Of a stretch of DNA of 64,000 nt, positions 4,242 through 62,858 are shown piece by piece. Location of the stretch: assembly GCF_041080675.1 (NCBI RefSeq), contig NZ_CP163520.1, forward strand, positions 4,154,001-4,218,000, in the 5' to 3' direction. The translations under genes and the position numbers were made by a program. How positions within the stretch are numbered: position 1 is the first letter of the stretch; each line of letters begins with the position of its first letter. The DNA is from Streptomyces sp. cg36 (GTDB lineage Bacteria > Actinomycetota > Actinomycetes > Streptomycetales > Streptomycetaceae). The notes beneath the pieces are model-generated. The model saw nothing but the letters and a program-made list of their open reading frames with translations. It was not told the origin of the DNA and ran no database searches.

Positions 4242-5531
4242 TCAGCCCTGGAGGAACGCCAGCAGCGCGTTCGCCAGCAGGTACGGGTCGTCCGCCCCGC
4301 ACAGTTCGCGCGCGCTGTGCATCGACAGGATCGCCACCCCGATGTCCACCGTGTGGATCCCGTGGCGGGCCGCCGTGATGGGCCCGATCGTGGTCCCGCA
4401 GGGCATCGCGTTGTTGGACACGAACGTCTGCCACGGCACCCCCGCCCGCTCGCACGCCGCCGCGAACACCGCCCGCCCCGAACCGTCCGTCGCGTACCGC
4501 TGGTTGACGTTGACCTTGAGGATCGGGCCGCCGTTGGCGCGCGGGTGGTGCGTCGGGTCGTGGCGCTCCGCGTAGTTGGGGTGGATGGCGTGGCCGGTGT
4601 CGGAGGAGAGGCAGACCGTGCCCGCGAAGGCCCGCGCCTTGTCCTCGTAGGACCCGCCGCGCGCGAACACCGAGCGCTCCAGGACCGTGCCGAGCAGGGG
4701 GCCGTCCGCGCCGGTGTCGGCCTGCGAGCCGTTCTCCTCGTGGTCGAAGGCGGCCAGGACCGGGATGAAGTCCGGCTCGGCGGCGGTGGACGCGGCGGCC
4801 AGGGCGGCCGTGCCCGCGTGCACCGAGATCAGGTTGTCCATCCGGGGCCCGGCCACCAGCTCCTGGTCGCGGCCCAGGTACGACGGCGGCTCGATGGAGT
4901 GCACCATCAGGTCCCAGCCGGTGACCTCGCCCTCGGCCAGGCCCTCCTCCTGCTCCAGGAAGCGGATGAGGTCGCCCTCGGCGACGTCGCCGAGGCCCCA
5001 GATGGGCTGGAGGTGCTTCTGCCGGTCCAGCTTGAGGCCGTCGTTGGCCGAGCGGTCCAGGTGGATGGCGAGCTGGGGGACGCGCAGCAGGGCGCGGTCC
5101 ACGTTCACCAGGCGGTGGGTGCCGTCGCGCAGGGTGAGGCGGCCCGCGAGCCCGAGGTCGCGGTCGAGCCAGGTGTTGAGGAGCGTCCCGCCGTAGACCT
5201 CGACGGCGACCTGGCGCCAGCCGTGGGCGCCGGTGTCCGGCAGGGGCTTGACCCGCAGGTTGGGCGAGTCGGTGTGGGCCCCCACGATCCGGAACGGGGT
5301 GTGCGCCGCCGCCCCCTCCGGCACGTACCAGGCGATGATCGCGCCGCCGCGCAGCACGTACTTCCCGCCCGCGCTCGCGTCCCACGCGTCCGTCTCCCGC
5401 ACCTGCTGGAAGCCGGCCTTCTCCAGCCGCGCCGCCGCGTTCGCCACCGCGTGGTACGGGGACGGGCTGGCCGCCAGGAAGGACATCAGGTCGTCGGTGT
5501 GGCCGCGGTCGAAGCGGGGCGGAGTGCTCAT
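4242..5531 (-). CDS. M18 family aminopeptidase (aspartyl aminopeptidase type)
   Basis: A 429-residue cytoplasmic zinc metallopeptidase that removes N-terminal, typically acidic, residues from peptides. The M18 signatures are all visible: the metal-binding GAHTDSPNLRVKP near residue 85, DHEENGSQADTGADGPLL near 238, and SDTGHAIHPNY near 293, with a C-terminal TTIGPITAARHGIHTVDIG segment carrying the last metal ligand. Length is normal for bacterial M18 enzymes. It follows the acyl-CoA dehydrogenase gene on the same strand but is separated from it by a strong terminator at 5564-5595, so it probably has its own promoter. Confidence 0.95.
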   Translation of the reverse strand: MSTPPRFDRGHTDDLMSFLAASPSPYHAVANAAARLEKAGFQQVRETDAWDASAGGKYVLRGGAIIAWYVPEGAAAHTPFRIVGAHTDSPNLRVKPLPDTGAHGWRQVAVEVYGGTLLNTWLDRDLGLAGRLTLRDGTHRLVNVDRALLRVPQLAIHLDRSANDGLKLDRQKHLQPIWGLGDVAEGDLIRFLEQEEGLAEGEVTGWDLMVHSIEPPSYLGRDQELVAGPRMDNLISVHAGTAALAAASTAAEPDFIPVLAAFDHEENGSQADTGADGPLLGTVLERSVFARGGSYEDKARAFAGTVCLSSDTGHAIHPNYAERHDPTHHPRANGGPILKVNVNQRYATDGSGRAVFAAACERAGVPWQTFVSNNAMPCGTTIGPITAARHGIHTVDIGVAILSMHSARELCGADDPYLLANALLAFLQG

Positions 5532-43382: not shown

Positions 43383-43426
43383 TGGAGCGAGTGACGGGAA
43401 TCGAACCCGCGCTCTGAGCTTGGGAA
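43383..43426 (-). repeat. Left att-like fragment of tRNA-Gly (44 nt)
   Basis: The 44 bases are identical to 62785-62828, the 3' half of the intact tRNA-Gly(CCC) including CCA, T arm and anticodon. Sequence diverges abruptly after GGGAA in the anticodon loop, as expected for an integration crossover. Confidence 0.92.
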
Positions 43427-49678: not shown

Positions 49679-49723
49679 TGGAGCGAGTGACGGGAATCGA
49701 ACCCGCGCTCTGACGCTTGGGAA
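49679..49723 (-). repeat. Middle att-like fragment of tRNA-Gly (45 nt)
   Basis: It matches the 3' half of tRNA-Gly with a single inserted C (TGACGCTTGGG for TGAGCTTGGG), and ends in the anticodon loop at GGGAA like the left fragment. It marks the boundary between the two islands. Confidence 0.88.
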
Positions 49724-50419: not shown

Positions 50420-51277
50420 TCAGGCGGTAGATGGAGCAGGAGCCGGGCTGGGAGGGCGGACCCCGGTCAGTTCCTCCGCGCGGTGCCGCAGGAGCGGGGC
50501 CAGCTTGCTGTACCAGCCGCGGCCCACGGCCTGGAGCATCTCGGCGAGGGCGATCTGTTCGGCGATCCGACCGGCGGGGGTGTCGAGTACGTGGGCGAAC
50601 TCGGCGCGGATGCGGTCGGCGACGGCGGGGACGCGGAGGCTGTTGACGTAGAGCATCGCGGGGTCGTAGCCGACGGGGACGGCGCCCCAGCGCTCCCAGT
50701 CCAGGATGACGAGCGGGTCATGGGTGAGGTTGGCCCACTGGAGATCGGCGTGGCCGGTGACGCGTTCGGTGATGGCCGGCGCGGGGATGCCCAGGAACTC
50801 GGGGAAGGCTCGGTCGGCCCAGGACTGACGGATGGTTTCGCGGGGCGGTTCGGCGGTGCTGAGGGCGTCCAGGCTTTCCCGCAAGGTGGTCCACCATGAG
50901 TCCGGTAGGTGCGGGTCGCGGGTGAGGTCGGGTGTTTCCGGCGAGATGACGGGCTGGGCGATGTAGTCGATCAGCTCTGCCTCGAAGATGTACTCGCCGC
51001 TGTCCCAGCGGTACAGCTCGTGGAGGTGCGGGCGGGGCACCTTGTCGGACACGCGTTCCTCGGCGAGTGCGATCCCCTCGTTCCGAGTGGTGGTGGTCTT
51101 GGCGGCCTCGCCGCAGTGGATGCGGAGCCAGTGTCCGCCCTCGGTGCGGCTGCCGATGGTGCGGCCCAGCCATCCCCACGCAGGCGCACCCATGGTCGTG
51201 GTGGACAGGCGGGCAGCGGCGTCGGCCAGGGCATTCTCCATGCGTGCCCTGGTGCTCTCATCCGTGGGCGAGTACAT
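50420..51277 (-). CDS. Phosphotransferase-fold protein (APH-like kinase)
   Basis: A 285-residue protein of the aminoglycoside phosphotransferase/protein-kinase-like fold. The catalytic loop is VTGHADLQWANLTHD (HxDxxxxN) and the metal site is VILDWERWG, with Asp-Trp-Glu in place of DFG. The N-terminal lobe has WLRIHCGEAAKTTTTRNEG. It is the last gene of a six-gene operon with a small peptide, an oxygenase and an aldo/keto reductase; its start overlaps the reductase gene by 20 bp. Substrate unknown: a small molecule or the peptide are the options. Confidence 0.8.
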   Translation of the reverse strand: MYSPTDESTRARMENALADAAARLSTTTMGAPAWGWLGRTIGSRTEGGHWLRIHCGEAAKTTTTRNEGIALAEERVSDKVPRPHLHELYRWDSGEYIFEAELIDYIAQPVISPETPDLTRDPHLPDSWWTTLRESLDALSTAEPPRETIRQSWADRAFPEFLGIPAPAITERVTGHADLQWANLTHDPLVILDWERWGAVPVGYDPAMLYVNSLRVPAVADRIRAEFAHVLDTPAGRIAEQIALAEMLQAVGRGWYSKLAPLLRHRAEELTGVRPPSPAPAPSTA

Positions 51278-52151
51278 CGGTGACCTTCCTGAGATGGCCC
51301 GGATCGAGCGGGGCGGTGATGGCGGCCTTTGCGGCGGCCCAGTGAGGGGCGGTGCTCGTAGACAGCAGTACCACGTCCAGGTTCGGACATGAGGCGGCGA
51401 CGAGGAGGCAGGAAGCGGCCGGTGAGGCACGCGGGCGGATGAAGTCGGCGAGTGCTGGTGTGACGAGGCCGGGCAGCTCGCCGCCGTGCAGGGGAGAGGA
51501 GCCGAAGTTGATCAGTCCCGCCGCATGTGCCAGGACGAGGGGGCCCCGGCTGTCGAGGGCGTGGGCGATCGGTCTTGCCATGACGAGGCTGACCGGCTGC
51601 TGGATGGCCCGCAGGTGATGTTCACCCGATCCAGCGGCCTCGGTGGCCAGGCCCAGGAGTTCGGGCACGGTGAAGGTGCCGTGCAGGAACCCCGACCAAG
51701 TAGCCACGCCGTACCCGCCGATCCTGCCCGCGCCGGCGAACTCCTCCAGGACCGCGAACGCCTCACGGAGCGCCGGGTGCAGTTCCCCGGGGCGCAGGCC
51801 GGCACGCTCCGGATTGTGGATGAACACCAGGTCGACCCGGCCGAGAGCGGCCAGGGACCTCTTTGTCTGCCAGCGGATGAAGGCGGCGTCGAGGCTGTGT
51901 CCGGTGCGGACTTGGGCAGCGGTGAGCAGTCCGGCCCGGAGAGCGGCCTCACCTTCTTCCGGCATGAAGAACCCCGTCTTCGTTGCCACCAGGGCGCTCG
52001 GGCAGTCGGAGATGACAGGGCCCAGCGCCTGGTGGGCGCCGCCGTAGTTGGGGGCGGTGTCGATCCAAACCGCCCCGTCGGCGCACGCGGTGCGGGCCGC
52101 CTGTTCGACAGCGCGCACCCGGTACGTCCCCAGTCCCAGGGAAGCGGTCAC
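51258..52151 (-). CDS. Aldo/keto reductase
   Basis: A 297-residue AKR-family TIM barrel. All four catalytic residues can be seen: Asp and Tyr in WIDTAPNYGGAHQ, Lys in ALVATKTGFF, and His in DLVFIHNPE. It would reduce carbonyls with NADPH. The GTG start overlaps the stop of the upstream cupin gene (GTGA), and its end overlaps the kinase start, so all three are translationally coupled. The coupling with a peptide gene and an oxygenase suggests a joint pathway. Confidence 0.88.
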   Translation of the reverse strand: MTASLGLGTYRVRAVEQAARTACADGAVWIDTAPNYGGAHQALGPVISDCPSALVATKTGFFMPEEGEAALRAGLLTAAQVRTGHSLDAAFIRWQTKRSLAALGRVDLVFIHNPERAGLRPGELHPALREAFAVLEEFAGAGRIGGYGVATWSGFLHGTFTVPELLGLATEAAGSGEHHLRAIQQPVSLVMARPIAHALDSRGPLVLAHAAGLINFGSSPLHGGELPGLVTPALADFIRPRASPAASCLLVAASCPNLDVVLLSTSTAPHWAAAKAAITAPLDPGHLRKVTDVLAHG

Positions 52152-53079
52152 GAGGCGCCCCCGACCACGGCGACGGCCTGACCGGCAACCAACGCGGAGA
52201 CGACCTCTGCCACCTGAGCAAGGGTGAGATCGGACTCGGCGGCCAGGTCCGCCATGGTGGTTGGCCCGCCACGTGCGAGGAGGCGGAGAACCGGGGCGAC
52301 GGGCAGGGCGAAGGTCCACTCGTTCCCCGCCCCGGCGAAGGTCACAGTCTCGTCGTCCTGGTCGATCCGGGCACGGGGCACCGTGGCCTGGACGGTGATG
52401 CGCGGCTCGGCAGGAACGCCGGTGAGGTGTGGCAGCGACAGACGTGGACGCCCGGGGTGCGTGGTGTCCAGTGACGTCTGCCAGCGGTCCAGAACCCCCG
52501 GGTCGTCCAGGGCGGCCAGAACCTCCTTCCGTACCGCGGCCAGGCAGTCCGCCCGCTCCTGCGAAGTCCCGAAACGCGGTACGTCTGCCCGGACTGTCGC
52601 GCTCGCCCGGAGGCTGTCGCACAGCCAGCCCAGGAACTCGGCGCCGGACTGAGTGGCGAGCCCGAAAGTGAGGTGAAGCGAGGCGGTGCCCCGGTCGGCG
52701 CTGACGGCGTGCCACCAGCCACGCGGCAGATAGAGCACGTCCCCCGGCGCCAGGACGAGATCCGCGATCGGGTCGCCAGCAGGGGCCTGGGGTGCTTCGA
52801 CGTCCCGCCAGGCAGGTGCCACGCGGGTGGGGCTGTAGATCTTCCACCGCTTGGAGCCTTCGAGTAGGCCGTGGCAGCCACGGCTTCCCCGGCGCGGGAG
52901 AGCCGCATCCGAGGCGGTTCGAGCCGGTGAGCGGCCACGATCTCGTTGAGGTCGTCCCAGCCCAGTAGCGGGGGACGGATGATGCCGTCGGAGGGGATCA
53001 TTTTGTGGGCCCGGAAGCACGTCTGGGCGAGGAACGTGTCCCCGCCCAGACGCTCGGCCCACGATGCGGAATCAGTCAC
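52148..53079 (-). pseudogene. JmjC/cupin-type oxygenase with internal deletion
   Basis: The N-terminal part (from the ATG at 53079: MTDSASWAERLGG, LRLSRAGEAVA-like text) and the C-terminal part (GSKRWKIYSPTRVAPAWRDV, GDVLYLPRGWWHAV, then a terminal winged-helix with LARGGPTTMADLAAESDLTL) belong to a ribosomal-oxygenase-like cupin_4 protein, but lie in different frames. The join is near 52860-52868, and comparison with the family suggests that about 80 residues including the HxD iron ligands are missing. So the enzyme is inactive here. In intact relatives it is a 2-oxoglutarate/Fe(II) hydroxylase. Confidence 0.78.
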
Positions 53080-53098
53080 CGTGGGTCTCCTGGGTTGA

Positions 53099-53230
53099 TC
53101 AGGTGTCGTTCATGTCCGACCTGCCGCCCGTGTTGTCCGAGGCTTCCTCGGTGCGCGAGCGGTCTGCGGCGATGCGGCGGACACCGATCACCAGACTGCT
53201 GTTCTCTTCGGTGGGAGCGTTCTCGTTCAT
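53099..53230 (-). CDS. 43-residue peptide, possible precursor
   Basis: A 43-residue peptide beginning MNENAPTEENSSLVIGVRR and ending GGRSDMNDT. The ribosome binding site AGAGAGGAG sits 6 nt before the ATG and is the best in the area. It is acidic at the N-terminus, then carries a hydrophobic VIGVRRIAADRS stretch, a Ser/Thr/Asp-rich middle and a GG before the last seven residues. It lies 19 bp upstream of the oxygenase gene, in an operon with a reductase and a kinase, so it may be a ribosomally made precursor that these enzymes modify. Otherwise it could be a small regulator. No known precursor family is recognised. Confidence 0.6.
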   Translation of the reverse strand: MNENAPTEENSSLVIGVRRIAADRSRTEEASDNTGGRSDMNDT

Positions 53231-53338
53231 TCCGTACTCCTCTCTGATCTCGATGAGTTCCGCCGGGAACCCGACGGGGCACTGCGGTGGTGCCTCCGCC
53301 CCGTGACGTGCGGGGATCTCGGGACGGACGTCCGTGGG

Positions 53339-53473
53339 TCAGCGACTGGGATCCCCGGCCATGGCCAGGGTGATCACAAGGGCGCTGACGGCGATGACGT
53401 ACAGGAGAACGGCGAGCGGCTGGCGCCAGCCCCGGGGGCCACGGGCACGGGGCCGGGGGCAGCCGCCCCTCAC
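53339..53473 (-). CDS. One-helix membrane protein
   Basis: A 44-residue protein: a basic N-terminus (RPRARGPRGWRQ) and one hydrophobic helix, PLAVLLYVIAVSALVITLAM, ending GDPSR. The GTG start overlaps the stop of the upstream zinc-ribbon gene as GTGA, which supports a real, coupled gene. Confidence 0.6.
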   Translation of the reverse strand: MRGGCPRPRARGPRGWRQPLAVLLYVIAVSALVITLAMAGDPSR

Positions 53474-53769
53474 GCCGCCCCCGTCTCGACGGGGGCCGGT
53501 CGCAGGGATCGGGCCGACAAGGCCGTGCCGCCGCAACGCGGGCACTTGCACGGGGGGTAGCGCCCGGGGTTGGAGAGGAGGTCGTAGCGGTCTCCTTCCA
53601 GGACCCGCGTCCCCGGTGACCACGTTCGGCCCGAGTCCCGTGACACCCGGATGCTCATGAGGACGCGGGGCTTGAAGCCCGGGCCAGGGGTCTTCCCGAT
53701 CGTCGTTCGCTGCGTGTCAGGAGTGCCCGCCGAGTCGTTCGAGGCGGTCGTCCTCGGTCGCTTCGCCAT
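53470..53769 (-). CDS. Small zinc-ribbon-like protein at the head of the cargo operon
   Basis: A 99-residue protein with a basic N-terminus (MAKRPRTTASND), a beta-like middle (RVLMSIRVSRDSGRTWSPGT) and CKCPRCGGT near residue 76, one CxxC preceded by another Cys. It is divergent from the XRE-TPR regulator, and the operator palindrome (53819-53833) lies 50 bp upstream. Function unknown. Confidence 0.65.
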   Translation of the reverse strand: MAKRPRTTASNDSAGTPDTQRTTIGKTPGPGFKPRVLMSIRVSRDSGRTWSPGTRVLEGDRYDLLSNPGRYPPCKCPRCGGTALSARSLRPAPVETGAA

Positions 53770-53818: not shown

Positions 53819-53833
53819 TACCCAACTTGGGTA
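53819..53833. promoter_or_regulatory. TACCCAA-C-TTGGGTA palindrome between divergent cargo genes
   Basis: A perfect palindrome with 7-bp arms and a single-base centre. It is 50 bp from the minus-strand operon start (53769) and 58 bp from the XRE-TPR start (53891). The position fits a shared operator bound by the XRE-TPR regulator. Confidence 0.65.
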
Positions 53834-53890: not shown

Positions 53891-55249
53891 ATGCCCGAGT
53901 CACGTCATGCGAAGGAACTCCCGGCGAGTCTGCTCACCGATCCGGAGATGCTGGAGGCGTGCCGCGTACGCGACTTCGCGACAATCTTCCGACTGCTCAA
54001 GGCCCGCGCGGGCATCTACCCGTCCATGATCGCGCGGCAGTGCGAGCTGACACCGAGCCGGGTGGGTGAGGTCATCGCGGGCCAGCGGCAACTTCTCCAC
54101 ATGGACGTGATCGAGCGGATCGCCGACGGCTTGCGCATCCCGGGGCACATGCTCGGGCTGGCACGACGGGAGTGGGAGACGCCGACCGCGCTCGCCGTTG
54201 CCGAGCGCAATCCAGCGGAGCCCGTTCATCCGCCGGCCGCGCCCAGTCCCCTGGCCGCCTTACCAGGGGCCGAAGTGGACGGCATCCTGACCCTGGCCAC
54301 CGGTAGCAATCTGAGCCCGTCCACTCTCCAGGCTTTCCGGTCCTCCATCGAGGACTACTGGCGGCATGACGACGAGCACGGGGGCGAGACCCTACGCCCC
54401 GCCGTTGTCGGCCAGCTGCGTTATGTCGAGGGGCTGCTGAAGGATCAGCGGCCGATGTCACTACGGCACGGCCTGTACGGCATCGCCGCGGAACTGGCAC
54501 GGCTCACCGGGTGGACGTACTTCGACGCCCGCCAGTACCACCAGGCGCGTACCTACTTCTCGGAGGCCCTGCAACTGGCACGGGAAATCAACGACCACCC
54601 GTTCATGGCCAACGTGCTCGCCTGCCTGAGCCTGCAAGCGACCTACCAGGACAAGCCGGCGGATGCCCTTGCGCTGGCGTCCGCCGCCCAGGACCAGGCC
54701 CGCGTCGCGAGCGGAACGACGCCGAGAGTGCAGGCCATGCTGACCATGCGCGAAGCATTCGCCCACGCCACCTTGGGCGACAAGAGGGCCGCGCACACGG
54801 CGATCTCCGAGGCACACGGCCAGTTCGAGCACATCAGGCCCGGGGACCCGGACCCGGCATGGGTGGCGTATTTCGACGAGCCGAAGCTCATCGTGGACAC
54901 CGGCATCGCACATGCCCGTCTGGGGGAGCCCGCCATCGCCGAACCACTGATCGCGGATGCGCTGGAGCGCGAGGGCCAAGCCAACCAGCGAGGCCGTGCC
55001 TTTCACGCCTTCTGGCTCGCCCGTACGCAGCTCCAGCAGGGCAAGGTCGACCAGGCGTGCCATACGGCGACGCAGGCGCTGGCGCCCGCCGCCGCAGTGA
55101 CCTCGGAGCGGGTGGCCGGGCACCTTCGCGAGTTCTACGAGCAACTTGCGCCGCATCGCGAAGTGCCGGCCGCGGTGGCCTTCGAGGCGCGACTGCGTGA
55201 AGTGCTGCCGGTACCCGGTCAGCGGACGCCTTCCTCCATGAGGACGTAG
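53891..55249 (+). CDS. XRE-TPR transcriptional regulator
   Basis: A 452-residue regulator: N-terminal helix-turn-helix at about residues 25-80 (MIARQCELTPSRVGEVIAGQ) and a C-terminal array of tetratricopeptide-like helices (for example YHQARTYFSEALQLAREIND, ALASAAQDQARVASGTTPRV). The TPR part usually senses a peptide or small molecule in related regulators. It is divergent from the peptide operon and probably controls it. The ATG at 53891 is chosen; a longer frame from 53651 runs over the operator. Its end overlaps the convergent NUDIX gene by 31 bp. Confidence 0.85.
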   Translation: MPESRHAKELPASLLTDPEMLEACRVRDFATIFRLLKARAGIYPSMIARQCELTPSRVGEVIAGQRQLLHMDVIERIADGLRIPGHMLGLARREWETPTALAVAERNPAEPVHPPAAPSPLAALPGAEVDGILTLATGSNLSPSTLQAFRSSIEDYWRHDDEHGGETLRPAVVGQLRYVEGLLKDQRPMSLRHGLYGIAAELARLTGWTYFDARQYHQARTYFSEALQLAREINDHPFMANVLACLSLQATYQDKPADALALASAAQDQARVASGTTPRVQAMLTMREAFAHATLGDKRAAHTAISEAHGQFEHIRPGDPDPAWVAYFDEPKLIVDTGIAHARLGEPAIAEPLIADALEREGQANQRGRAFHAFWLARTQLQQGKVDQACHTATQALAPAAAVTSERVAGHLREFYEQLAPHREVPAAVAFEARLREVLPVPGQRTPSSMRT

Positions 55250-55752
55250 AGCAGGCCGACGAGGGAACCGCTGCTGACGATCTCCCGGCGGTCGATCATG
55301 CCCCGGATGTCGGTCAACGGGATCCACTCGATGCGGTCCGACTCGTTCTTCTCGGTCGGCGGCCCCTCGTACGTCGCACCGTCGGCACGGAACAGGTGGT
55401 GCTGGGAGTCAGTGATGCCGTTCGCCGGTTCTGCGTAGATGAGGGGCTTCACGGGACCTGGCCGCCAGCCGGTCTCTTCCAGGACTTCACGGGCGGCAGC
55501 CTCGCCAGGGGTCTCGTCCGCTTCCACCAGGCCCATCGGGAGTTCCCAGGCCCAGGCGTCCGTAATGAACCGGTGGCGCCACATCATCAGGACCTCCTGG
55601 TGGTCGTTGACGACGGCGGCCACGGCCAGGTGGCGGAGCTTGACGACGTGGTGTTCCCAGCGGTGCCCGTCCGGCGTCTCCACGTCGGTGAGCCAGAGGT
55701 TCACCCACTTGTTCTCGTAGATCGGACGTTCCCCGTGGATCTTCCACTGCAT
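55219..55752 (-). CDS. NUDIX hydrolase
   Basis: A 177-residue NUDIX enzyme, MQWKIHGERPIYENKWVNLW..., with the full box GLVEADETPGEAAAREVLEE followed by TGW. The sequence resembles ADP-ribose pyrophosphatase-like NUDIX proteins that Streptomyces carries next to XRE-TPR regulators. It would cleave a nucleoside diphosphate linked to another group. The ATG at 55752 is chosen; upstream in-frame sequence belongs to the relaxase remnant. Confidence 0.88.
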   Translation of the reverse strand: MQWKIHGERPIYENKWVNLWLTDVETPDGHRWEHHVVKLRHLAVAAVVNDHQEVLMMWRHRFITDAWAWELPMGLVEADETPGEAAAREVLEETGWRPGPVKPLIYAEPANGITDSQHHLFRADGATYEGPPTEKNESDRIEWIPLTDIRGMIDRREIVSSGSLVGLLYVLMEEGVR

Positions 55753-60321: not shown

Positions 60322-60534
60322 ATGGCTGACCGTCTCTTGAGTGTCGTCGAGGCCGCCGAGCGCCTTGGTGTCGGCGAGCGCTTTATCCGCCGCCTCGTGT
60401 CCGAGCGCCGAATTCGCTACGTCAAGGTCGGCAAACACGTCCGCATCGCCGACAGCGTCCTGGCCGCGTACATCGAGGAGCGGACGGTCGAGCCGGTCCG
60501 CACCCGGCGCTCCCGCTACGGGCGGGCGGCCTAG
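60322..60534 (+). CDS. xis: Excisionase-like helix-turn-helix protein
   Basis: A 70-residue MerR/excisionase-type DNA-binding protein: LLSVVEAAERLGVGERFIRR with ERRIRYVKVGKHVRI, the signature of the helix-turn-helix excisionase family. Its stop overlaps the integrase start by one base (TAGTG), so the two are coupled. It would direct the integrase towards excision. Confidence 0.88.
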   Translation: MADRLLSVVEAAERLGVGERFIRRLVSERRIRYVKVGKHVRIADSVLAAYIEERTVEPVRTRRSRYGRAA

Positions 60535-61754
60535 TGGGGCGCCCGCGCCAGAAGGCGCCGCGCCGCAGCTTCGGCGCGATACGCAAGCTGCCCTCCGGGC
60601 GTTACCAGGCCCGGTACCCCGGCACGGACGGAATTCTGCGCCCGGCCCCGGAGACCTTCGAGACGAAGAAGGACGCCGAGGTCTTCCTCTCACAGATACA
60701 GGCCGACCAGTCGCGCGGTGACTGGCTCGACCCTAGTGCCGGTGAGGTGCTGTTCGCCGACTACGCCAAGCGCTGGATCGACGAGCGCGGCGTCGCGCCG
60801 ACGACCGACGAGCTCTACCGCCGCCTGCTGCGGCTCCACCTCGCCCCGGCGTTCGGACAGCAGTACGTCAACGTCATCAGCCCTGCCAAGGTCCGCACCT
60901 GGCGGGCTGAGCGTCTCCAGGCCACGGGCAAGACGCAGGTGGCCAAGGCATACCGGCTGCTGAAGGCCGTCATGGAGGCTGCCGTCGACGACGACATGAT
61001 CCGCCGCAACCCCTGCAGGATCCGTGGCGCGGGCAAGGAGGAGGCGGACGAGCGCCCGGTCGCCTCGGTCGAGCAGGTCTTCGCGGTGGCCGAGGCGATC
61101 GGCATCCGCTGGCGGCTGATGATTCTCCTCGGAGCCTTCGCCTCGATGCGACCGGAGGAACTGGCCGAGCTGCGCCGTAAGGACATCGCCCCGGACGGCA
61201 GTGCCCTCTACGTGCGCAGGGCCGCGCCCGAGCTGAACGTCGGCCGCCGGGTGATCGGCGCCCCCAAGTCCCGTGCGGGGAAACGGGAGATCGCGCTTCC
61301 CGGCTTCATGCACCTGGACGTGCGCCGCCACCTCGACTGGTTCGCCGAGGCCGGCCCCGAGGGGCTGGTCTTCGTCGGCGAGCGCGGGGCCCGGTTGCGC
61401 GGGACGACCTTCGGCCGCAAGTGGCGCAAAGCCCGCGACCTGGTCGGCCTGCCCGAAGGCTTCCGCTTCTACGACCTGCGGCACACCGGCAACACCATCG
61501 CCGCCGACACCGGCGCGAAGATGAAGGACCTCATGGTCCGCGCCGGCCACTCCTCGGAGCGGGCCCAGCTGATCTACCAGCACTCGACGCGCAAGCACCA
61601 GCGCAAGCTCGCCGGAGCCATCGACGTCGACGTGCGTCGCCAGCGCGCGGAAGCGGAGGCGGCCGAGCACGCGGGGGACGAAGGGGCGACCGTCCACCCC
61701 CTCGTCCCGCGCGCACACGACACAACCGACGACTCCGTCGTGCGGGAAGCATGA
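60534..61754 (+). CDS. int: Tyrosine integrase
   Basis: A 406-residue site-specific recombinase. The N-terminal arm-binding region begins RQKAPRRSFGAIRKLPSGRYQ; the core-binding domain covers about residues 75-165; the catalytic domain has the first Arg in GAFASMRPEELAELR, HxxR-region RFYDLRHTGNT, GHSS and the nucleophile Tyr in LIYQHSTRKHQ. It is the usual integrase of Streptomyces elements that insert into tRNA genes, and lies 1.0 kb from the tRNA-Gly. The GTG at 60534 overlaps the xis stop. Confidence 0.93.
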   Translation: MGRPRQKAPRRSFGAIRKLPSGRYQARYPGTDGILRPAPETFETKKDAEVFLSQIQADQSRGDWLDPSAGEVLFADYAKRWIDERGVAPTTDELYRRLLRLHLAPAFGQQYVNVISPAKVRTWRAERLQATGKTQVAKAYRLLKAVMEAAVDDDMIRRNPCRIRGAGKEEADERPVASVEQVFAVAEAIGIRWRLMILLGAFASMRPEELAELRRKDIAPDGSALYVRRAAPELNVGRRVIGAPKSRAGKREIALPGFMHLDVRRHLDWFAEAGPEGLVFVGERGARLRGTTFGRKWRKARDLVGLPEGFRFYDLRHTGNTIAADTGAKMKDLMVRAGHSSERAQLIYQHSTRKHQRKLAGAIDVDVRRQRAEAEAAEHAGDEGATVHPLVPRAHDTTDDSVVREA

Positions 61755-62784: not shown

Positions 62785-62858
62785 TGGAGCGAGTGACGGG
62801 AATCGAACCCGCGCTCTGAGCTTGGGAAGCTCATGTTCTACCATTAAACTACACTCGC
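62785..62858 (-). tRNA. tRNA-Gly (anticodon CCC)
   Basis: The minus strand folds into a complete cloverleaf: acceptor GCGAGTG/CACTCGC, D arm with GGTAG, anticodon stem TGAGC/GCTCA around TTCCCAA (anticodon CCC), T arm GCGGG-TTCGATT-CCCGT, and encoded CCA. The 3' half from the anticodon loop is duplicated at 43383-43426 and 49679-49723, which identifies it as the attachment site of the islands. Confidence 0.97.

Follow-up and report, generated by a model that had tools for sequence, protein, structure and literature searches.

A 64,000-nucleotide stretch of the 9.02-Mb genome of Streptomyces sp. cg36 (contig NZ_CP163520.1, positions 4,154,001 to 4,218,000; hereafter the window) contains six packed minus-strand genes encoding a 43-residue peptide, three enzymes and two accessory proteins, with a divergent helix-turn-helix–tetratricopeptide repeat (HTH-TPR) regulator gene across a palindrome. 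The features are listed below in window coordinates; loci and genomes used for comparison carry numbers with the prefixes L and G, respectively.

50420..51277, minus strand: APH-fold kinase, 285 residues (from motifs and a structure model)
51258..52151, minus strand: aldo/keto reductase, 297 residues, catalytic residues present (Pfam match and alignment)
52148..53079, minus strand: pseudogene, split over two frames, of a JmjC (PF08007) ribosomal-oxygenase-like hydroxylase with a C-terminal winged helix
53099..53230, minus strand: putative precursor peptide designated type A, 43 residues, with a leader at approximately residues 1–30 and the proposed core SDNTGGRSDMNDT
53339..53473, minus strand: one-helix membrane protein, accessory
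53470..53769, minus strand: zinc-ribbon-like protein, accessory
53819..53833, no strand: palindrome TACCCAACTTGGGTA (TACCCAA-C-TTGGGTA), likely operator
53891..55249, plus strand: divergent HTH-TPR regulator of the NsdA family

A preliminary description of this locus took the genes to be an operon of a precursor peptide and modifying enzymes, akin to those of ribosomally synthesized and post-translationally modified peptides (RiPPs). The spacing that it gave, with overlaps of 4, 4 and 20 bp and gaps of 108 and 19 bp, agrees exactly with the coordinates. Its six-gene set stands only in part: peptide, oxygenase, reductase and kinase occur generally, whereas the zinc-ribbon-like gene (13 loci with relatives at E ≤ 1e-3) and the one-helix gene (4 loci, and a few more under laxer matching) are optional. 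The six-gene operon was therefore dropped as a general unit, which is instead peptide, oxygenase, reductase and kinase, usually plus an HTH-TPR regulator. The zinc ribbon label is backed by no family match above the cut-off. The RiPP-like reading is supported by conservation of the peptide, co-occurrence of the genes and the sharing of a leader between two peptide types. It is thus probable that these genes represent a new RiPP family whose enzymes are a JmjC hydroxylase, an aldo/keto reductase and an APH-fold kinase. The window locus is probably a degenerate member of this type of RiPP cassette, which is mobile and widespread.

The peptide gene is preceded by AGAGAGGAG, the near-perfect ribosome-binding site ascribed to it earlier. 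A scan with the reductase gave 71 loci, including ones from Kitasatospora, Actinacidiphila and Catenulispora, and in 61 of them a short open reading frame (ORF), usually preceded by a ribosome-binding site, encodes the motif SD-x(2-5)-G-x-[ST]-D-x-[NS]-D; in one of the 61 (L065) this ORF is frame-shifted. Alignment of 35 peptides showed that Leu13, Arg24, Arg26, Ser31, Asp32, Gly36, Asp39, Asn41 and Asp42 are invariant, and the leader follows the shared pattern GLL-x-A-x-x-x-I-x-A-x-x-R ... SD. The ratio of nonsynonymous to synonymous substitution rates (dN/dS) is 0.30 among 11 close sequences; the alignment and this ratio bear out the conservation of the short peptide between relatives. A large protein collection contains 446 relatives, and all named ones among the best 120 are labelled hypothetical or uncharacterized. 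In four plasmid records that were opened, the peptide is annotated as the gene immediately 5' of the cupin gene. A chance or spurious ORF is ruled out by this annotation, the conservation and the dN/dS value. The Gly-Gly pair previously suggested as a cleavage site is not conserved, the second glycine alone being invariant, and was rejected as such. Cysteine is present in 1 of 62 type A ORFs (the frame-shifted, misread L065 included) and in 1 of 120 type A database relatives. Residue 23 of the window peptide, in the AARxR leader motif, is Asp in place of the Ala found in 97% of the 35-sequence alignment. Because a near-invariant residue is replaced, this copy seems to be drifting after the loss of its enzyme. 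A type A peptide at L090 (from 4048) is an orphan precursor or a relic.

The ten loci without the motif were searched with all known peptides and none was found. Four are distant or partial reductase matches (L068, L071–L073), two start inside the oxygenase at a contig end (L011 and L055), three have a 5'-truncated oxygenase (L035, L042 and L054), and L070 has no family oxygenase ahead of the reductase. Across 246 Streptomyces genomes, the peptide profile matched 38 places and the reductase profile 60; the 38 were compared with 41 of the 60 reductase rows (33 full-length and 8 others). A reductase follows downstream on the same strand in 35 of the 38, at 1.18–1.22 kb in 33 of these; the distance is 957 bp in the window because of a deletion and 3.7 kb in G241, where an insertion intervenes. 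The peptide lies upstream of every one of the 33 full-length reductases, and six of the 8 other rows lack it, five of them partial and one at G046:C113 (E = 6e-46). Peptides without a reductase were those of G191, G175 and G136, the last (E = 8e-4, inside a 427-residue frame) being taken as a chance match. The enzymes thus occur with the peptide, and the co-occurrence test set by the preliminary description did not refute its reading.

A draw of 392 Streptomyces genomes gave 57 places in 53 genomes at E ≤ 5.5e-8, approximately 1 in 7 genomes, with 14 other matches (E of 0.002 to 0.01) assumed to be chance. A draw of 396 genomes of the phylum gave four matches, three in the same genus and a weak fourth. 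Gene clustering of 74 sequences placed the oxygenase cluster in 65, the kinase in 62 and two HTH-TPR regulator clusters in 20 and 13, all remaining clusters occurring in at most 9 except an antisense shadow of the reductase. In Catenulispora (L031 and L033, 2988–4553), an asparagine-synthase-like protein (scanned in L031) and a short opposite-strand ORF flank the type A cassette, and this flank is perhaps another RiPP locus.

An oxygenase search of 293 genomes of the order gave weaker tiers. Forty neighbourhoods were fetched, 39 from part of the weaker-tier rows and one from elsewhere, and 39 contain an oxygenase ORF. Relatives of both the reductase and the kinase are also present in 20 of the 39, each of which has a peptide of a second kind, type B (B1, e.g. 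MAEPTTPPPARSGLLVAVQELTAVHDRYDSLRSDNQGSSGDAPWPGGDGNLHDSE; B2, ending in ...PALLIAVEELATAHDRSESERSDITSSQNSAGDDGENRDLNLPKE). Among the 19 without reductase and kinase, L115, L116 and L120 have a type C peptide and L139 a different candidate, and none was recognised in 15. Type B1 has 98 database relatives, the named ones again hypothetical or uncharacterized, and any cysteine is present in 7 of the 98. Profile comparison of 57 type A with 18 type B peptides aligned the leader alone, over 33 columns up to 'SD' (score 34.1, E = 3.5e-7; best of 50 column shuffles, 12.5), and the C-terminus of type B is unrelated to that of type A; comparison of types A and C scored 9.0. Since the same leader and related enzymes go with a different core, types A and B show the RiPP family pattern of a conserved leader and a variable core. 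In L117 and L118, the front is shared with the window operon (NUDIX hydrolase 94–96%, regulator 82–84% and zinc-ribbon-like protein 71–73% identical, with the palindrome) and the back is a type B2 cassette.

These comparisons bear on the alternative of a peptide that serves a small-molecule pathway as a small regulator or scaffold, binding one of the three enzymes or the TPR regulator and itself staying unmodified. Such a role would fit the nearly invariant C-terminus within type A, the lack of a recognised protease or exporter in type A neighbourhoods and a kinase whose best fold matches act on small molecules. However, in type B the core is exchanged and the leader is retained along with related enzymes, a pattern not required of a scaffold, and the oxygenase fold is that of enzymes hydroxylating protein side chains. 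We regard a scaffold as unlikely and prefer a modified precursor.

Some of the loci found with the oxygenase have further features of their own. A beta-lactamase-like serine hydrolase was seen by eye on the opposite strand, approximately 3–4 kb upstream of the oxygenase, in 8 of the 20 type B loci. L120 (4716–10473) belongs to the genome of the window itself (G000:C1, ~257.7–263.5 kb); there a type C peptide and a JmjC_2 oxygenase are neighbours, and genes for a second JmjC/Cupin_8 protein and an aldo/keto reductase follow downstream, so that the strain may have another RiPP-like cluster. At L139, an unrelated 46-residue peptide, MTKVPAAAKTESHVALRPKRIGFSVETVKTAQVKSVPNLEVDQKDV, precedes a JmjC_2 relative (4493–4633 in oxygenase orientation).

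The JmjC/cupin oxygenase with a C-terminal winged helix, described earlier as broken in this strain, was identified by the Pfam JmjC_2 match to its second frame (E = 2.8e-15) and by the modelled relative from L003. Relative to L003, the window copy has a 253-bp deletion, whose junction lies near 52864 and which shifts the frame. The deleted part includes the HWDDHD block (HxD), which is present in intact relatives and which we take to hold the iron ligands; by its sequence, the oxygenase is dead in this strain. The intact L003 enzyme is predicted to have a full-length ribosomal-oxygenase fold, with structural matches to NO66, MINA53 and YcfD. The JmjC fold with HxD...H and the C-terminal winged helix is found in intact relatives, and the window copy is without HxD. 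The modelled winged helix has the secondary-structure order (beta3-alpha3) of a RiPP recognition element (RRE). NO66, MINA53 and YcfD likewise combine JmjC_2 with a ROXA-like winged helix, but structural alignments gave 16–22% identity, and in the cassette the neighbouring genes encode a short peptide, a reductase and a kinase. From this genomic context, the substrate is presumably the peptide rather than a ribosomal protein.

The reductase matches Pfam Aldo_ket_red (E = 1e-9). Asp31, Tyr36, Lys58 and His112, which we take to be the Asp-Tyr-Lys-His catalytic tetrad, are invariant in a 15-sequence alignment that includes the window copy, so the tetrad is complete as first noted. The reductase is missing from four loci (L078, L079, L086 and L087) that do have the peptide, oxygenase and kinase, and in each of these peptides Gly precedes DxND. 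With this position left free, Ser or Thr precedes DxND in 20/20 and 59/59 reductase-bearing loci (overlapping sets), and also in all 120 listed database relatives; the locus motif itself demands Ser/Thr and is no test of the position. The four loci form one clade in both trees, so the association of Gly with reductase loss counts as one event, and their leader also differs. Three of the four reductase-less genomes hold partial or distant reductase matches elsewhere, that of G733 being strong but partial (6e-95). Action of the reductase on the Ser/Thr before DxND is suggestive only.

The APH-fold kinase is likewise upheld. Pfam APH matches it below the cut-off (E = 0.009), and it carries HADLQWAN and LDWE, which presumably fit the kinase motifs. 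Its model adopts the APH fold, the sequence contains both HxDxxxxN and a second Asp motif, and its structural matches include LxmK. In class V lanthipeptides and thioamitides, the APH-fold kinases CaoK, LxmK and TvaC are next to the precursor peptide (PMC9486802), as in the cassette. The cassette could be a relative in which the kinase dehydrates Ser/Thr for ring formation. Unlike those systems, it has no adjacent HopA1 lyase in the genomes tested: this type of lyase was absent from 13 of 15 chosen cassette genomes and, in the other two, lay 1.2 Mb away or on other contigs. The near-lack of cysteine in the peptides of both types also speaks against such rings. On these two grounds this candidate was rejected as extremely improbable.

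The HTH-TPR regulator (family match E = 3.9e-103) corresponds to the XRE-TPR gene described beside the operon. According to regulator profiles, 57 of 86 loci have such a gene no more than 3.5 kb upstream, mostly in divergent orientation. The palindrome noted between operon and regulator is present in 4 of 149 loci, namely the own-genome locus, L013, L117 and L118, and the regulators of the latter three are 82–84% identical to that of the window; the sequence is a likely operator candidate. A NUDIX hydrolase gene (window 55219–55698), whose product is 94–96% identical in the same three loci, travels with the regulator of the island whichever cassette type comes after.

The proposed location in a mobile island is supported by the following features, which bracket the cassette.

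49679..49706, minus strand: 28-bp repeat of the tRNA-Gly 3' end, which probably marks the left edge of the cassette island
60534..61754, plus strand: tyrosine integrase, presumably of the island
62785..62858, minus strand: tRNA-Gly(CCC), likely target site, with its 3' end as the right-hand repeat

Exact 28-bp copies of the tRNA-Gly 3' end occur at 43383–43410, 49679–49706 and 62785–62812 and nowhere else in the genome, and the 13.1 kb from the second to the third copy hold the cassette, the integrase and a NikA/MobC-like gene. Because there are three exact copies, the sequence suggests that two elements may have integrated in tandem at one tRNA gene. Genes of the 43.4–49.7 kb element appear CheB/CheR-PAS-like by eye. 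Elsewhere, the reductase was found on 23 plasmid records, all from Streptomyces, and in 22 the match covers at least 80% of its length. On the four opened plasmids, the regulator, peptide, cupin and reductase are accompanied by a hypothetical protein similar in size to the kinase. Three of the four are linear with a MOBF relaxase, one of these being pSV2. G064 has two cassettes on one chromosome, each ~22 kb from an end, and a split reductase (one copy is L082).

Such a setting, on plasmids, in a tRNA island and at both chromosome ends of G064, could be that of a toxin-antitoxin or addiction pair kept by mobile elements, in which the enzymes would counteract a toxic peptide (or vice versa), and broken copies do exist, including that in the window. 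On the other hand, the peptide frame stays open while the enzymes decay (window and L096), the peptide stands alone in L090, and three enzymes exceed the needs of an antitoxin. An addiction pair is thus very unlikely, and we return to the RiPP reading.

A short encoded precursor lies beside dedicated enzymes, as expected of a RiPP, and the following pathway can be proposed. The C-terminal winged helix of the oxygenase would bind the leader helix, and the JmjC center would hydroxylate the core, which is rich in Asp and Asn, at an Asp, Asn or Ser/Thr residue. The kinase may phosphorylate a new or native core hydroxyl, or may phosphorylate the product to protect the producer, and the reductase would act on an oxidised residue, for which the Ser/Thr preceding DxND is a possible position. 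The product would be released by host enzymes. The divergent regulator would control the operon via the palindrome, and the product may feed back on it.

Several observations weigh against this interpretation. In type A peptides, mean conservation is 0.77 at the C-terminus but 0.43 at the N-terminus, which sets them apart from most RiPP antibiotics. No oxygenase, reductase or kinase was detected with the L090 peptide in the 13 kb fetched, and no transporter or protease was recognised among the families common to several type A loci, part of which were scanned. The C-terminal domain of the oxygenase scores as ROXA-like wH in 10 and as HTH_15 in 15 of 20 members and as no named RRE; a PqqD-type model touched one of 20 oxygenases (E = 0.007), and no RRE was among the 50 structures listed in the structural comparison of the oxygenase model. 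The two-domain layout is common to ribosomal oxygenases, and the winged helix alone is no proof of leader binding. Because the best fold matches of the kinase are small-molecule kinases, it could serve self-protection. Finally, the reductase-less clade is a single lineage.

A bolder extension, possible if rather doubtful, is that the cassette is a modified-peptide communication system of mobile elements. The near-invariant core of a hydroxylated, phosphorylated peptide would be the signal for the adjacent HTH-TPR regulator, and core types A and B would be dialects swapped behind the same regulator and operator. The regulator would then be an actinobacterial counterpart of the RRNPP peptide pheromone receptors, with a RiPP as its ligand.

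In agreement with the earlier statement that no named RiPP class has this enzyme set, a literature search found no paper that names it in RiPPs; subscription papers were mostly outside its coverage, and a description there is possible. The calcium-dependent antibiotic was compared with the cassette by its chemistry; unlike the presumed cassette product, it is made by a nonribosomal synthetase. Presumably, an oxygenase and then a kinase act on its Asn. It contains hydroxyasparagine or the phosphorylated form (PMC12473245). The chemical logic is alike, and the analogy suggests that an oxygenase followed by a kinase may act on Asn in the cassette as well.

Among ribosomal products, JmjC hydroxylation of a precursor is described for BipG of biphenomycin, including in a Streptomyces, in PMC12707348. 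The bip cluster described there, unlike the cassette, has a radical SAM enzyme, a multinuclear non-heme iron-dependent oxidative enzyme (MNIO), a peptide arginase and a TldD-related protease, and its main text contains neither 'aldo' nor 'kinase'. PF08007 JmjC proteins with a beta3-alpha3 winged helix, with bacterial homologues (~30% identity) in RiPP-like contexts, appear in the main text of PMC12710340, in which 'aldo', 'aph', 'phosphotransferase' and 'cupin' are absent and neither the peptides nor the cassette was found described.

If correct, this interpretation would add a RiPP family that joins ribosomal-oxygenase-type hydroxylation, aldo/keto reduction and phosphorylation, and would tie an enzyme kind that modifies ribosomes to peptide natural products. 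The type A peptide is present in about one in seven Streptomyces genomes (53/392) and yet is apparently unnamed, and its leader motif together with JmjC_2 offers a ready search handle. The natural swap of cassettes behind one regulator would provide a way to probe a signal role of the products.

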